A stretch of DNA of 64,000 bases from Stutzerimonas stutzeri (GCF_002890915.1 NZ_POUT01000004.1:62001-126000); one strand, 5' to 3'; positions 7,786-16,991 are shown, counted from the stretch's first letter. Numbers and translations are program-made. The notes: generated by a model not told the origin, from the letters alone.

Positions 7786-8787
7786 ATGTCCACACTGCGC
7801 TCGCTGAACAAGACCCTCCTCGCCGCCGGCCTGGCCGTCGCGACGTTGTTTTCACCGCTGGCCAGCCAGGCCGCCGAGAAGCTGAAGATCGGCACCGTGG
7901 TCTGGGCCGGCTATGGCCCCTTCTACGTCGCCGACAAGCTCGACCTGTTCAAGCCCCACGGCCTGGACGTGGACCTGCAGTTCTTCAACGACCCGGCGCT
8001 GATTCCCACCGCCATGGTCAGCCGCGCGCTGGACGGCGGCATGCTCACCTACGACCAGGTGGTGGCCTCGGTCGCCAAGGGCTTGAAGCACCGGGTGGTG
8101 ATGCCCATCGACTTCTCCAACGGCGGTGACGCCATCGTCGCCGACGCGTCGATCCAGTCCATCGCCGACTTCAAGGGCAAGAAGGTCGGCTTCAATCCGC
8201 TGTCGCCCTCGGACTTCCTGCTGGCCTACGCGCTGCAGCAGAACGGCATGAGCGACAAGGACATCGACGCCGTCAACATGACCCCGGAAGGCATCCCCGG
8301 CGCCATGGCCTCGGGCAACCTGCCGGTCGGCGTGACCTACGAGCCCAACGTCTCGCAGATCCTCTCCATGGGCGGCGGCGACAAGTTCAAGGTGGTCTAT
8401 TCGTCCAAGGACGCACCGGGGCTGATCACCGATGTACTGGTGTTCGACGAGGCGGTGATCGCCAAGAAGCCCGCCGCCATCAAGGCAATGATCCAGGGCT
8501 ATCTCGACGGCCTGGCCTACATGCAGGCGCACCCCGAGGAGTCGGCGAAGATCATCGGCGAGGTGCTGGGCGTCAGCGCCGAAGAAGCCGTCGAGCAGAT
8601 GGCCGGCGCCTACAACATCCCCCTTGCGGAGATGGGCAAGAGCTTCACCCCAGGCGACGACACCCACTCCTTCCATGGCAGCGGCGCGATCATCGCCAAG
8701 CTGCTCAAGGACAACGGGCAGATCCCGACCATCCCGGATTTCAGCCAGACCTACGACGCCCAATTCACCGAAGCGCTCGCCCAGTAA
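7786..8787 (+). CDS. ABC transporter substrate-binding protein (NitT/TauT, NMT1/THI5-like)
   Basis: A 333-residue periplasmic binding protein with a classic signal peptide (hydrophobic core LLAAGLAVATLF, cleavage expected after ASQA near residue 29). The mature part begins EKLKIGTVVWAGYGPFYVADK, typical of the SsuA/TauA/NMT1 family that binds small nitrogen or sulfur compounds. It is the first gene after the guanidine riboswitch and the partner permease and ATPase close the same operon (15277-16991). It therefore probably delivers the guanidino substrate of the pathway; the ligand is inferred. Confidence 0.88.
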   Translation: MSTLRSLNKTLLAAGLAVATLFSPLASQAAEKLKIGTVVWAGYGPFYVADKLDLFKPHGLDVDLQFFNDPALIPTAMVSRALDGGMLTYDQVVASVAKGLKHRVVMPIDFSNGGDAIVADASIQSIADFKGKKVGFNPLSPSDFLLAYALQQNGMSDKDIDAVNMTPEGIPGAMASGNLPVGVTYEPNVSQILSMGGGDKFKVVYSSKDAPGLITDVLVFDEAVIAKKPAAIKAMIQGYLDGLAYMQAHPEESAKIIGEVLGVSAEEAVEQMAGAYNIPLAEMGKSFTPGDDTHSFHGSGAIIAKLLKDNGQIPTIPDFSQTYDAQFTEALAQ

Positions 8788-8832
8788 GCCGACGCCGGGC
8801 GGGCCCTCGCCCGCCTGTGCTGGAGAAAAACC

Positions 8833-9855
8833 ATGACTGCCAAACCTCTGTACCGTTACGCCGATGGCCGCCTGCCCAACACGCTGGCGATCCTCTATAC
8901 CGCGCTCGCCTACGGCGGCGGCCTGGCTCTGCTGTTCGCCGGTAACGGCTGGCTGAACGCACTGGGCACGTTGCTGCTGGCCCACGGCATGATCATCGCC
9001 GCCTACCTGATCCACGAATTCGCCCACGGCGCCATCTTCAGCGTGCCCAAGCACAACGAATGGGCCGGCAATGTCTGCAGCTGGCTGTGCGGCAGCTGCT
9101 ACGCCGAGTTCCAGGACCTGCGCAAGAAGCACATGCGCCACCACGTCGACCGCGCCGACGTGATCACCTTCGACAGCAAGGCCTTCCTCAAGGCACGCCC
9201 GCTGTGGTTGCAGAAGCTGGTGCTGGCGCTGGAATGGGCCTATGTGCCGGCGGTGGAGCTGATCATGCATTTCTATGTGATCGCCCTTCCCTTCATCACC
9301 GACAACGACAAGCACCGCGCCCGGCGCGGCAAGGTCGCCGCGGTGCTGGCCATTCGCACACTGCTTTTTGTCGGGCTCGCGGTGCTCTCGCCGAAGGCCG
9401 TGCTGCTCTACGCCGTGGCCTGGATGATCATGCTCGGCGTGCTGCGTTTCGCCGATGCCTATCAGCACACCTACGAGGCCTTCGCCGTGCTGGAAGATGG
9501 TGGCAAGCTGCCGGAGGACAAGCGCCGCGACCGTAGCTACGAGCAGCAGAACACCTACAGCAACGTGGTTTCCGAGCGCTGGCCGGCGCTGAACCTGCTG
9601 CTGCTCAACTTCTCCTTCCACAACGCCCACCACGAGAAGCCGGTGGCGCCCTGGTATCGCCTGCCCAAGCTGCACGCCGAGCTGTACGGCAGCACCTACA
9701 ACCAGGTCATCCCGATGCGCAAGCTGCTCGGCAGCTTCCACCGCTACCGCGTGCGCCGCGTGCTGGACGATGACTACGGCGTGGTCAGCGAAGGGCCGAA
9801 CAAGGCCGACAACTTCTACGGCGCCGTGGGCGTCTCGTTCCTGACGGCGGTGTGA
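8833..9855 (+). CDS. Membrane fatty-acid-desaturase-fold di-iron oxygenase
   Basis: A 340-residue integral membrane protein with the three His boxes of the desaturase/hydroxylase superfamily: HEFAH (61-65), HMRHH (100-104) and HNAHH (263-267). Together these supply eight His ligands for a di-iron centre. Hydrophobic segments sit around residues 15-60, 140-160 and 175-205. Family members desaturate or hydroxylate unactivated C-H bonds with O2. Placement directly behind a guanidine-responsive binding protein and before two SDR genes suggests hydroxylation of a guanidino compound rather than lipid modification; that is inference. It is 1 nt upstream of the next gene and is clearly co-translated. 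Confidence 0.85.
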   Translation: MTAKPLYRYADGRLPNTLAILYTALAYGGGLALLFAGNGWLNALGTLLLAHGMIIAAYLIHEFAHGAIFSVPKHNEWAGNVCSWLCGSCYAEFQDLRKKHMRHHVDRADVITFDSKAFLKARPLWLQKLVLALEWAYVPAVELIMHFYVIALPFITDNDKHRARRGKVAAVLAIRTLLFVGLAVLSPKAVLLYAVAWMIMLGVLRFADAYQHTYEAFAVLEDGGKLPEDKRRDRSYEQQNTYSNVVSERWPALNLLLLNFSFHNAHHEKPVAPWYRLPKLHAELYGSTYNQVIPMRKLLGSFHRYRVRRVLDDDYGVVSEGPNKADNFYGAVGVSFLTAV

Positions 9856-9856
9856 C

Positions 9857-15280: not shown

Positions 15281-16149
15281 CCGCGCAGATCACCATTGCC
15301 ACGCCCGGCGTCGAGCAAACGAGCCGGACCGCGCCCGCCGAACCGAGCGTATCGCTGGTACGCAAAAGCAGCTTCTGGCGCATTCGCGGCGACCTCTCGC
15401 GGCGCAGCGCCTGGCTGCTGACCGGCGCCGGGCTGAGCCTGCCCTTCGTCGTCTGGTGGCTGTGGACCGCGCTCGGCCTGGCCGACCCGATGTTCATGCC
15501 CAGCCCCGGCGCAGTGCTCGAGCGCATCGGCCGCTGGTGGACCAGCGAGGGGCTGCTGGGAGACATCGGCATCAGCGTCTGGCGGGTCATGGCGGGCTTC
15601 GGCGCCTCGGCGCTGATCGCCCTGCCACTGGGGCTGTACATCGGCACCTACCGGCCGGTGCAGGCTTTTCTCGAACCGCTCACCGACTTCATCCGCTACA
15701 TGCCGGCGGTGGCGTTCATTCCGCTGGTGATGCTCTGGGTCGGCATCGACGAAGGCTCCAAGGTGTTGATCATCTTCATCGGCACCTTTTTCCAGATGGT
15801 GCTGATGGTCGCCGAGGATGTGCGCCGCGTACCCATGGCGCAGATCGAGGCGGCGCAGACCATGGGCGCCAACCGCAGCGAGATCGTCAAGCTGGTGATC
15901 CTGCCGTCGGCCAAGCCGGCGCTGCTCGACACCCTGCGCATCACCTGCGGCTGGGCCTGGACCTACCTGGTGGTGGCCGAACTGGTCGCGGCCAACTCCG
16001 GCCTCGGCTACGCCATCCTCAAGGCGCAGCGTTACATGCACACCGACAAGATCTTCGCCGGCATCCTGCTGATCGGTCTCATCGGCCTGCTCACCGACCA
16101 GGCTTTCCGCTGGTTGCACCGCCGCGCCTTTCCCTGGATGAGGAAATGA
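15277..16149 (+). CDS. ABC transporter permease (SsuC/TauC-like)
   Basis: A 290-residue inner-membrane permease of the nitrate/sulfonate/taurine type, with about six helices and the cytoplasmic EAA loop around AAQTMGANRSEIVKLVILP. An N-terminal cytoplasmic stretch of about 40 residues precedes the first helix. It pairs with the adjacent ATPase and the riboswitch-proximal binding protein. ATG 15277 overlaps the preceding stop. Confidence 0.9.
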   Translation: MTAQITIATPGVEQTSRTAPAEPSVSLVRKSSFWRIRGDLSRRSAWLLTGAGLSLPFVVWWLWTALGLADPMFMPSPGAVLERIGRWWTSEGLLGDIGISVWRVMAGFGASALIALPLGLYIGTYRPVQAFLEPLTDFIRYMPAVAFIPLVMLWVGIDEGSKVLIIFIGTFFQMVLMVAEDVRRVPMAQIEAAQTMGANRSEIVKLVILPSAKPALLDTLRITCGWAWTYLVVAELVAANSGLGYAILKAQRYMHTDKIFAGILLIGLIGLLTDQAFRWLHRRAFPWMRK

Positions 16150-16151
16150 CC

Positions 16152-16991
16152 ATGTCCGATGCCAAGATTCGTGTACGCCAGGTCGGCAAGACCTTCGTCA
16201 GCGAGCGCCGCAAGGTGCAGGCGCTGCAGTCGATCGACCTGGATATCCAGCCCAATGAGTTCGTCACCTTCGTCGGCGCCTCGGGCTGCGGCAAGTCCAC
16301 CCTGCTGCGCATCATCGCCGGGCTGGAGACGCTGAGCCGCGGCGAAATCCTGCTCGACGGCAGGCCCATCGACGGCCCCGGCGTCGACCGCGCCATGGTC
16401 TTCCAGCACTACAGCCTCTACCCCTGGCTGACGGTGATGCAGAACATCAAGTTCTGCCGCCAGCTCAAGGTGATCGGCGACACCGTGCGCCACGATGGAG
16501 ACGTGGAGTCCGCCGCCGGCCGCGCCGATGCCCTGCTCAACCTGATGGGCCTGACGCGCTTCGCCGATGCCTACCCCAGCCAGCTCTCCGGCGGCATGCA
16601 GCAACGCGTCGCCATCGCCCGCGCGCTGCTGCCCAAGCCCGCGACACTGCTGATGGACGAGCCGTTCGGCGCGCTGGATGCGCAGACCCGCGAAGTCATG
16701 CACGACCTGATCCGTCACGTGCACCGGCTGGAGAAGAGCACCATCCTGTTCGTCACCCACGATGTCGAGGAGGCCATCTATCTGGGCAGCCGCATCGTGC
16801 TGATGGCGCCACGCCCCGGGCGCATCGATTCGATCTACGAGGTGCCGCTGCCGGCCCAGCGCCACCAGGACATGAAGCTTGCGCCGGAATTCACCGAGCT
16901 CAAGCGCGAGATCCTCGCCCGTATCCGCGAGACGTCGGGCATGCAGACCGATCTGGAACAGCTGGCCAAGCTCAGCGCCGTGGCCGGCTGA
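16152..16991 (+). CDS. ABC transporter ATP-binding protein (SsuB/TauB-like)
   Basis: A 279-residue ATPase with Walker A GASGCGKST, Q-loop VFQHYSLYPW, signature LSGGMQQRVAIARALL, Walker B LLMDEPFGALD and the H-loop in FVTHDVEEA. ATG 16152 has GAGGAA 7 bases upstream; an alternative ATG at 16146 would overlap the permease stop. It is the last gene of the operon and ends 7 bases from the convergent stop of the Amt fusion gene, with no obvious terminator between. Confidence 0.92.
   Translation: MSDAKIRVRQVGKTFVSERRKVQALQSIDLDIQPNEFVTFVGASGCGKSTLLRIIAGLETLSRGEILLDGRPIDGPGVDRAMVFQHYSLYPWLTVMQNIKFCRQLKVIGDTVRHDGDVESAAGRADALLNLMGLTRFADAYPSQLSGGMQQRVAIARALLPKPATLLMDEPFGALDAQTREVMHDLIRHVHRLEKSTILFVTHDVEEAIYLGSRIVLMAPRPGRIDSIYEVPLPAQRHQDMKLAPEFTELKREILARIRETSGMQTDLEQLAKLSAVAG

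Follow-up and report, generated by a model that had tools for sequence, protein, structure and literature searches.

A Guanidine-I riboswitch precedes eleven co-directional genes

The window analyzed here is a 64,000-nucleotide stretch of the genome of Stutzerimonas stutzeri (GCF_002890915.1, NZ_POUT01000004.1:62001-126000). It contains eleven co-directional open reading frames (ORFs; positions 7786 to 16991, + strand) located behind a Guanidine-I (ykkC) aptamer, which together form a candidate operon for the catabolism of guanidino compounds. This organization, first proposed in a sequence-only reading of the window, was borne out by the covariance model for the aptamer, by the ORFs, and by Pfam and NCBIfam matches. 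The gene annotations of that reading were correct, and its "unknown protein" can now be assigned to the MgdL family. The aptamer and the genes are the following.

7635..7737, + strand: Guanidine-I (ykkC) aptamer, RF00442 (86.4 bits versus a gathering score of 63, E = 4.7e-14)
7786..8787, + strand: ATP-binding cassette (ABC) substrate-binding protein (SBP), NitT/TauT type (NMT1; PF09084, 92 bits)
8833..9855, + strand: DES, predicted (methyl)guanidine hydroxylase, an FA_desaturase-fold membrane oxygenase of the di-iron type (PF00487, 124.3 bits)
9857..10645, + strand: SDR1, short-chain dehydrogenase (PF13561, 160.8 bits)
10645..11400, + strand: SDR2, short-chain dehydrogenase (PF13561, 216 bits)
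11397..12281, + strand: EamA-family transporter (PF00892, 66.9 bits)
12278..13039, + strand: CRN, creatininase subfamily, lid motif GFPGFALEH (TIGR04448, 387.8 bits, cut-off 235)
13036..13695, + strand: ISO, isochorismatase-fold cysteine hydrolase, guanylurea-hydrolase-like (64.9% identity to the hydrolase of plasmid pMET-2)
13692..14474, + strand: MBL, metallo-beta-lactamase-fold hydrolase, lactonase-like (AiiA, 4-pyridoxolactonase; PF00753)
14471..15280, + strand: UNK, MgdL-family beta-barrel protein, predicted N-(hydroxymethyl)guanidine lyase (profile matches, D-x-R pair, structural model)
15277..16149, + strand: ABC permease (PF00528, 96.2 bits)
16152..16991, + strand: ABC ATPase (PF00005, 111.3 bits)

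The overlaps of 1 to 4 bases reported from the first SDR gene to the permease gene were confirmed on the sequence. Seven junctions overlap, by one base for SDR1/SDR2 and by four bases for SDR2/EamA, EamA/CRN, CRN/ISO, ISO/MBL, MBL/UNK, and UNK/permease, and a single base separates DES from SDR1. For SDR1, no NCBIfam cut-off was reached among the best 25 of 226 matches.

UNK belongs to the MgdL family of hemiaminal lyases

UNK had no match in Pfam and none in NCBIfam at 1e-5. In Vreelandella boliviensis, the 2-oxoglutarate (2-OG) dioxygenase MgdH hydroxylates methylguanidine, and MgdL, formerly a hypothetical protein, splits N-(hydroxymethyl)guanidine (Sinn and others, 2025, PMC12508155). As reported there, mgdH and mgdL are located between gca and atzF, residues D49 and R51 of MgdL are essential, and conserved residues lie inside the modelled beta-barrel. 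A profile of UNK matched proteins encoded by L110 and L108, two genomes of one genus (E = 6.6e-41 and 5.2e-42, respectively). In both, the matched gene directly follows a 2-OG dioxygenase gene, downstream of gca and behind Guanidine-I and Guanidine-II aptamers, and the D-x-R pair is found at residues 49 and 51. The order in L110, gca-dioxygenase-lyase-atzF, is exactly that published for V. boliviensis (PMC12508155); in L108, other genes precede atzF, which sits some 6 kb further on. The corresponding residues of UNK, D41 and R43, are invariant in all 25 aligned sequences, as are R14, W32, Q34, E114, E123, and W125 (window numbering). Assignment of UNK to the MgdL family, by comparison with the L108 and L110 proteins rather than with V. 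boliviensis MgdL itself, is thus well supported, and we predict that UNK is an N-(hydroxymethyl)guanidine lyase.

The structural model of UNK (predicted local distance difference test [pLDDT] score of 93.8) is beta-rich. Its top Foldseek match in the PDB was YLR301w (3rby; E = 2.3e-5, template modelling score of 0.53), a yeast protein described as uncharacterized in the PDB entry, followed by lipocalin-like proteins. This likeness in fold to HRI1 (PF16815) is accompanied by a weak Pfam match in some homologues: PF16815 was carried by 7 of the 120 listed UNK homologues, two of which scored 24.8 and 24.7 on rescanning, just below the cut-off of 27. The UNK profile retrieved no useful relative from PDB sequences (four chance-level matches) and no match at 1e-3 from plasmids.

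To which oxygenases are MgdL-family proteins coupled? The UNK profile had matches in 19 of the 390 genomes of the order that were searched. Four of these genomes carry the DES form, eleven (12 loci) have the UNK homologue beside a 2-OG dioxygenase, one beside a Rieske oxygenase, and one beside no recognized oxygenase, the neighbourhoods having been fetched for 17 of the 19. Among the 14 fetched loci that were not of the DES type, a 2-OG dioxygenase was adjacent in 12, the other two (L120, with the Rieske oxygenase, and L121, with none recognized) being remote matches of 39 and 37 bits. An oxygenase is therefore the usual neighbour of MgdL-family proteins, a place that DES fills in the DES operons. 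In L120 (7398-9184), the Rieske oxygenase gene adjoins a remote MgdL/HRI1 homologue that has the D-x-R pair, and this enzyme is perhaps a third type of oxygenase for the family. These neighbourhoods suggest a coupling of MgdL-type hemiaminal lyases to oxygenases of two or three unrelated types.

DES is a predicted methylguanidine hydroxylase

PF00487 is the only Pfam domain of DES, which does not have the 2OG-FeII_Oxy and DIOX_N domains by which MgdH is recognized. The three histidine boxes HXXXH, HXXHH, and HXXHH are present in all 49 homologues and, together with PF00487, place DES by its sequence in the membrane di-iron FA_desaturase superfamily. No relative of DES was found among PDB sequences. 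The model of DES (pLDDT 93.2) had weak structural neighbours in Foldseek, namely two subunits of the chloroplast FtsHi complex (E = 2.8e-4 and 7.5e-4) and then the alkane oxygenase FtAlkB (E = 0.11, probability 0.97). Plasmids yielded one remote DES match at 1e-30.

The shortest relatives of the window operon, L024 and L025, consist of the aptamer followed by genes for SBP, DES, UNK, the permease, and the ATPase. Because of these minimal operons, of the MgdL-family partner, and of the predicted regulation by guanidine, we predict that DES is a methylguanidine hydroxylase. A role as lipid desaturase was rejected on the basis of the operon, the aptamer, and the MgdL partner. GntB, the L-arginine gamma-hydroxylase of guanitoxin biosynthesis (NF041365), also acts on a guanidino compound and is matched weakly by DES; an arginine hydroxylase of this kind was rejected since DES, at 26.4 bits, is far under the curated cut-off of 380.

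The window operon resembles the MgdH-MgdL system of V. boliviensis by its Guanidine-I control, its guanidine carboxylase route, its ABC importer genes, and an MgdL-family protein with the D-x-R pair, which would act by the same succession of hydroxylation and hemiaminal fragmentation. In contrast to that system (PMC12508155), the partner oxygenase is predicted to be of the membrane di-iron type rather than a 2-OG dioxygenase, and the genes are not inserted between gca and atzF but form an operon of their own, which also contains six other genes (for two SDRs, EamA, creatininase, ISO, and MBL). Guanidine demethylation would rely on a predicted membrane iron oxygenase instead of the soluble dioxygenase known from Vreelandella, and the operon offers a testable role for a sizeable group of proteins called "fatty acid desaturases". 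Among the articles listed by the literature searches, which did not cover the original Guanidine-I article or most subscription articles, no description was found of the operon or of a membrane oxygenase under the control of a guanidine riboswitch.

Linkage between DES and guanidine aptamers is conserved

DES was used as a query in three samples of genomes and detected in 26 of 58 genomes of relatives (threshold 1e-30), 7 of 398 genomes of the phylum (1e-40), and 11 of 369 genomes of the class (1e-50), corresponding to 41 different genomes. A Guanidine-I or -II aptamer was present within the fetched stretch in 33 of these 41 genomes, indicating that the linkage is more than chance. In several members of the genus and in L064 to L067, the aptamer was recognized by pattern only and not by the covariance model; in L084, which is counted among the 33, the Guanidine-II aptamer is located before the clustered carboxylase gene and not before DES. 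Within the genus, 22 of 23 genomes had the aptamer, the remaining contig beginning inside the operon. Outside the genus, the aptamer was found in 11 of 18 DES-carrying genomes. A scan of named genomes provided 28 loci, including those of Tepidiphilus, Plasticicumulans, Thiobacillus, Aquabacterium, Leptothrix, and Herminiimonas, as well as a locus without aptamer in a Verrucomicrobia bin. Besides Stutzerimonas, several other genera of the gamma- and betaproteobacteria have the conserved operon.

The most divergent case of aptamer linkage was L028, which encodes a DES about 40% identical to that of the window in a cluster comprising a Guanidine-I aptamer and genes for SBP, permease, ATPase, DES, CgdA/B-type proteins, carboxylase, and AtzF. 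Three distant genomes (L080, L082, and L086) have a Guanidine-II aptamer whose end is no more than about 20 bases away from DES. Guanidine-II riboswitches of V. boliviensis bind both methylguanidine and guanidine (PMC12508155).

The partner of DES was determined for a table of 49 loci, in which the Stutzerimonas rows are close relatives, so that the table does not represent 49 independent events. MgdL was the partner in 32 loci and a xylose-isomerase-like TIM-barrel protein (PF01261) in nine; no locus had both and eight had neither. Two of the latter (L048 and L051) are cut by contig ends, and in a third (L027), DES adjoins a more distantly related TIM-barrel protein. The aptamer was present in 30 of the 32 MgdL loci versus four of the nine TIM-barrel loci. 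The two MgdL loci without aptamer are L045, whose contig begins inside the operon, and L041 of Tepidiphilus, in which the aptamer is deleted and the carboxylase kept. Conserved co-occurrence of the genes in the absence of a guanidine pathway or riboswitch, named in the sequence-only reading as an argument against its proposal, was therefore found in part for the wider DES family, since 7 of the 18 genomes outside the genus have no aptamer in the fetched stretch, but not for the combination of DES and MgdL.

The TIM-barrel protein occupies the place of MgdL near DES in L080, L082, L083, L084, L086, L056, L068, L069, and L029. It carries the motif GYDQGPQ (GYAQGPQ in L056). When the partner was mapped on a tree built from 36 DES proteins, two changes were needed, L081 (MgdL) and L082 (TIM-barrel) being sisters. 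The TIM-barrel protein may be another hemiaminal-splitting enzyme or may point to other substrates of DES.

Relatives also differ in their accessory genes. ISO and MBL occur without CRN in L050 and L055, and CRN occurs without ISO in L054. An SDR2-type gene (more than 50% identical) accompanies CRN in all 28 loci that have CRN, and an EamA gene in 26 of them. The existence of gene subsets argues against a single obligatory route and for modules converging on guanidine, and the constant pairing of CRN with SDR2 argues for one oxidised ring-opening step. A remote creatininase-like gene adjoins a glutamine-synthetase-like gene, near NitT-type ABC genes, in L086 (10465-12622) and L114 (5734-8052); in L086, this pair is located between guanidine riboswitches. 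Neither the glutamine-synthetase nor the TIM-barrel gene was retained as a core part, both being absent from the window operon.

ISO and CRN are related to hydrolases of guanidino compounds

ISO shares 64.9% identity with NDO41_26705, a cysteine hydrolase encoded by plasmid pMET-2. The pMET-2 product BB_00025, for which the activity has been demonstrated, and GuuH of Pseudomonas mendocina GU are guanylurea hydrolases (PMC9800807). We identified NDO41_26705 with BB_00025 because it is the only place on pMET-2 matched by ISO and because it adjoins a deaminase gene. All 30 ISO rows, including that of the window, and the pMET-2 enzyme have a Glu where the solved structure of the biuret-hydrolase type has a Gln, which we take to be Q215. 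ISO thus combines the two features by which guanylurea hydrolases were recognized, high identity and this Glu, the second of which was set in the present work and not taken from a publication. The Glu would suit a guanidinium group, and ISO is probably guanylurea-hydrolase-like. Assignment as a biuret hydrolase (BiuH, NF050097) was rejected owing to a score of 272.3 bits versus a cut-off of 370 and to the replacement of Gln by Glu.

The likeness extends to transport: the window permease shares 60% identity, and the window ATPase 58%, with its counterpart beside the plasmid hydrolase. The pMET-2 cluster (L122, 7564-11272) is compact and comprises genes for the hydrolase, the deaminase, a binding protein, the permease, and the ATPase. 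These identities suggest that the pMET-2 module and the window operon share an origin. ISO shares with GuuH and BB_00025 the isochorismatase fold, and with the pMET-2 enzyme 65% identity, the Glu, and the related permease and ATPase; it differs from these enzymes (PMC9800807) by its location in a riboswitch operon with an oxygenase, a lyase, and a creatininase. The operon would thereby link the guanylurea hydrolase family of metformin-degrading plasmids to a chromosomal guanidine regulon.

CRN is above the equivalog cut-off of TIGR04448 and retains the EQH and GHYEN motifs and the WDF tryptophan of creatininases such as the P. putida-type enzymes (1q3k, 1j2t). In contrast to the latter, its lid reads GFPGFALEH instead of GFLGWDIEH, Phe-Ala replacing Trp-Asp (presumably W174 and D175 of the P. 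putida enzyme), and no creatinase is encoded in the operon. The modified lid was found in 25 of 27 CRN rows, the other two being remote relatives. No second creatininase was detected in the genome at E = 0.001. The best solved relatives of MBL were the acyl-homoserine lactone lactonase AiiA and, at a lower level, 4-pyridoxolactonase. Participation of MBL in a 4-hydroxyarginine lactone route was considered and set aside, no evidence having been found for it.

A probable guanidine carboxylase pathway adjoins the operon

The window also contains the following features of a carboxylase operon.

273..320, + strand: Guanidine-II riboswitch before the carboxylase gene (RF01068, 44.1 bits)
345..3944, + strand: guanidine carboxylase, receiving pathway (TIGR02712, 1867.8 bits, over the cut-off of the model named urea carboxylase)
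4062..5861, + strand: AtzF-type allophanate hydrolase, receiving pathway (TIGR02713, 789.6 bits, cut-off 511.05)

This operon begins outside the window (L023) with a second Guanidine-I aptamer followed by genes for a permease, an ATPase, and two DUF1989 (CgdA/B-type) proteins, and continues with the Guanidine-II aptamer, the carboxylase, and AtzF. The product of 345-3944 was called a guanidine carboxylase because of the two aptamers and the two preceding DUF1989 genes. In L023 (10960-12047), the permease gene directly follows the riboswitch and there is no gene for a binding protein; both operons might use the binding protein encoded in the second one.

Entry of free guanidine into the carboxylase-AtzF route, as proposed in the sequence-only reading, is supported by the presence of both genes and by the distribution of carboxylases. 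A full-length carboxylase-like gene (urea or guanidine, at least 55%) was found in 19 of 25 tested genomes carrying DES; in G114, G200, and G1138, the full length is covered by two adjoining pieces. The match was partial in G562 and G679, and only matches of the biotin-carboxylase type were obtained for G044, G045, G606, and G700, the first three of which also have no aptamer at DES.

Proposed function and alternatives

We consider it probable, with some room for doubt, that the genes form a nitrogen-scavenging operon that strips N-alkyl or N-acyl groups from substituted guanidines, perhaps opens creatinine-type rings, and yields guanidine for the carboxylase operon. The catabolic character is supported by the conserved linkage to the aptamer and by three products belonging or adjacent to families with demonstrated guanidine release or activity on guanidino compounds (MgdL, guanylurea hydrolase, and creatininase). 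To this extent the sequence-only reading is upheld. Its suggestion of a single large compound acted on by every enzyme is not supported: L024, L025, L050, and L055 hold subsets of the genes, and the pairing of DES with an MgdL-family protein speaks for N-demethylation of a small substrate, for instance methylguanidine, rather than of a necessarily larger one.

The ABC system would import small substituted guanidines, methylguanidine being an example, although the direction of transport is itself a prediction. DES would hydroxylate methylguanidine and UNK would fragment the hemiaminal to free guanidine; N-dealkylation by an oxygenase and a lyase is likely and methylguanidine is the likeliest substrate. 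N-acyl or N-carbamoyl guanidines such as guanylurea would be split by ISO to yield guanidine; upstream of this, CRN and its SDR would act as ring-opening enzymes on an oxidised compound of the creatinine type. The guanidine formed would further raise expression of the operon through the aptamer and would enter the neighbouring route formed by the carboxylase, carboxyguanidine deiminase, and AtzF. Likewise, the substrates, the assignment of DES as a hydroxylase, and the functions of CRN, both SDRs, MBL, and EamA are put forward as predictions. Such an operon would generate free guanidine from its substituted derivatives and respond to this product as inducer, which is of interest because the source of the guanidine sensed by widespread riboswitches is listed as an open question in a 2025 review (PMC12186494).

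Several observations weigh against this explanation. DES has no tested relative, and GntB, its nearest guanidino-active family, is the one rejected above. The nine DES loci with a TIM-barrel protein and no MgdL, five of which are aptamer-free, indicate that the DES family is wider than the predicted role, and L028, L049, and L079 have the aptamer and DES but no MgdL. MBL is given no clear step, though its gene is among the commonest extra genes in deeper relatives. The carboxylases score over the urea carboxylase model, and some of the 19 may therefore act on urea; G700 has the operon and the aptamer but no full-length carboxylase match. Finally, no oxalyl-CoA decarboxylase was found over cut-off in the genome (TIGR03254), and an oxalate product would thus not be used by that route.

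A serious contender, which nonetheless falls short of being probable, is that DES with UNK, ISO, and CRN with its SDR act in parallel on different substituted guanidines, sharing one transporter and one product but no single starting compound. The gene subsets among relatives agree with this, as does pMET-2, where the related permease and ATPase are paired with only the hydrolase, the deaminase, and a binding protein. The tight overlaps and the common aptamer of the full form suggest instead one class of substrates, and the association of CRN with an SDR2-type gene wherever CRN occurs also speaks against full independence.

A single linear oxidative route from creatinine has the merit of using most enzymes of the operon, and we propose it as a rather unlikely alternative. 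Creatinine would be hydroxylated at C5 to creatol, an SDR would give creatone A, CRN would open the ring to creatone B, ISO would produce oxalate and methylguanidine, and DES and UNK would demethylate the latter to guanidine. The steps from creatol through creatone A and creatone B to methylguanidine belong to the abiotic chemistry of creatinine, so far known as abiotic or uraemic. Abiotic formation of methylguanidine from creatinine is reported in two articles (PMC12508155; PMC3775425). The unfailing presence of an SDR2-type gene with CRN, a CRN above the creatininase cut-off yet with a changed lid, the closeness of ISO to the plasmid hydrolase identified with guanylurea hydrolase, and a last step suited to DES and UNK are all consistent with the route. 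It is disfavoured by loci with ISO and no CRN (L050, L055) or CRN and no ISO (L054), leaves C5 hydroxylation with no clearly assigned enzyme and MBL and SDR1 with no step, and would produce oxalate in a genome where oxalyl-CoA decarboxylase was not found over cut-off. That the operon provides a first enzymatic route from creatinine to guanidine bypassing creatine, with methylguanidine set free by an acylguanidine hydrolase and then demethylated in an oxygen-dependent manner by a membrane di-iron enzyme and an MgdL-type lyase, is doubtful; if it did, a main vertebrate nitrogen waste would be a natural source of the guanidine sensed by riboswitches.

It also seems unlikely that a different N-alkylguanidine, for example creatine or guanidinoacetate, is the substrate of DES and UNK, the CH2 group beside the guanidine nitrogen being hydroxylated to give guanidine (or methylguanidine) and glyoxylate. 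The carbinolamine chemistry would be the same and creatine, the product of creatininase, would be at hand. However, minimal operons have no creatininase, and MgdL is described as narrow for N-(hydroxymethyl)guanidine (PMC12508155).

Classical creatinine breakdown via creatine and sarcosine, the riboswitch being incidental, is very improbable: CRN exceeds the creatininase equivalog cut-off, but no creatinase or sarcosine oxidase gene is present in the operon, the part of the genome searched for them, the lid differs from that of the P. putida enzyme in all but two remote rows, and the MgdL homologue and the relative of guanylurea hydrolase would be superfluous. A biosynthetic or detoxifying cluster, with guanidine as building block or poison and EamA exporting the product, would account for the frequent association of EamA with CRN and is the least credible of all, since the hydrolases, the ABC genes and binding protein, the predicted sigma-54-type site (see below), and the carboxylase genes indicate breakdown.

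Promoter and leader region

Two features were located upstream from the aptamer.

7394..7408, + strand: predicted sigma-54 (-24/-12) site, TGGCAC-N5-CTGC (pattern match)
7454..7613, no strand assigned: 160-base insert resembling a miniature inverted-repeat transposable element (MITE), with terminal inverted repeats AGTGGCCTGT...ACAGGCCACT, between the promoter site and the aptamer (alignment)

The sigma-54 consensus is TGGCAC-N5-TTGC at -24/-12, and the window site has CTGC instead of TTGC. The pattern TGG[CT][AG][CT]-N5-[CT]TGC was found upstream from 35 of 37 aptamer sites, many of them from close relatives, versus 15 of 1850 shuffles. It was missing for L079 and for the second aptamer of L086; L055 was excluded from the count, too little upstream sequence being available. 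A predicted sigma-54-type site before most aptamers fits nitrogen control. The MITE-like insert is missing from all three aligned relatives (L030, L039, and L041), and the same genome contains, at other places, a second copy (85%) and a third, short piece.

RNA folding of the leader yielded no clear expression platform; the window leader has no clear U run, and terminator-like sequences with U runs are found in the leaders of L024, L025, and L079. In Tepidiphilus (L041, 8900-8960), the aptamer has been lost by a clean deletion, and the operon proteins are 82-95% identical to those of the window. This genome keeps the sigma-54-type site and, elsewhere, the carboxylase gene (86%). The deletion constitutes a natural test of the purpose of the riboswitch.

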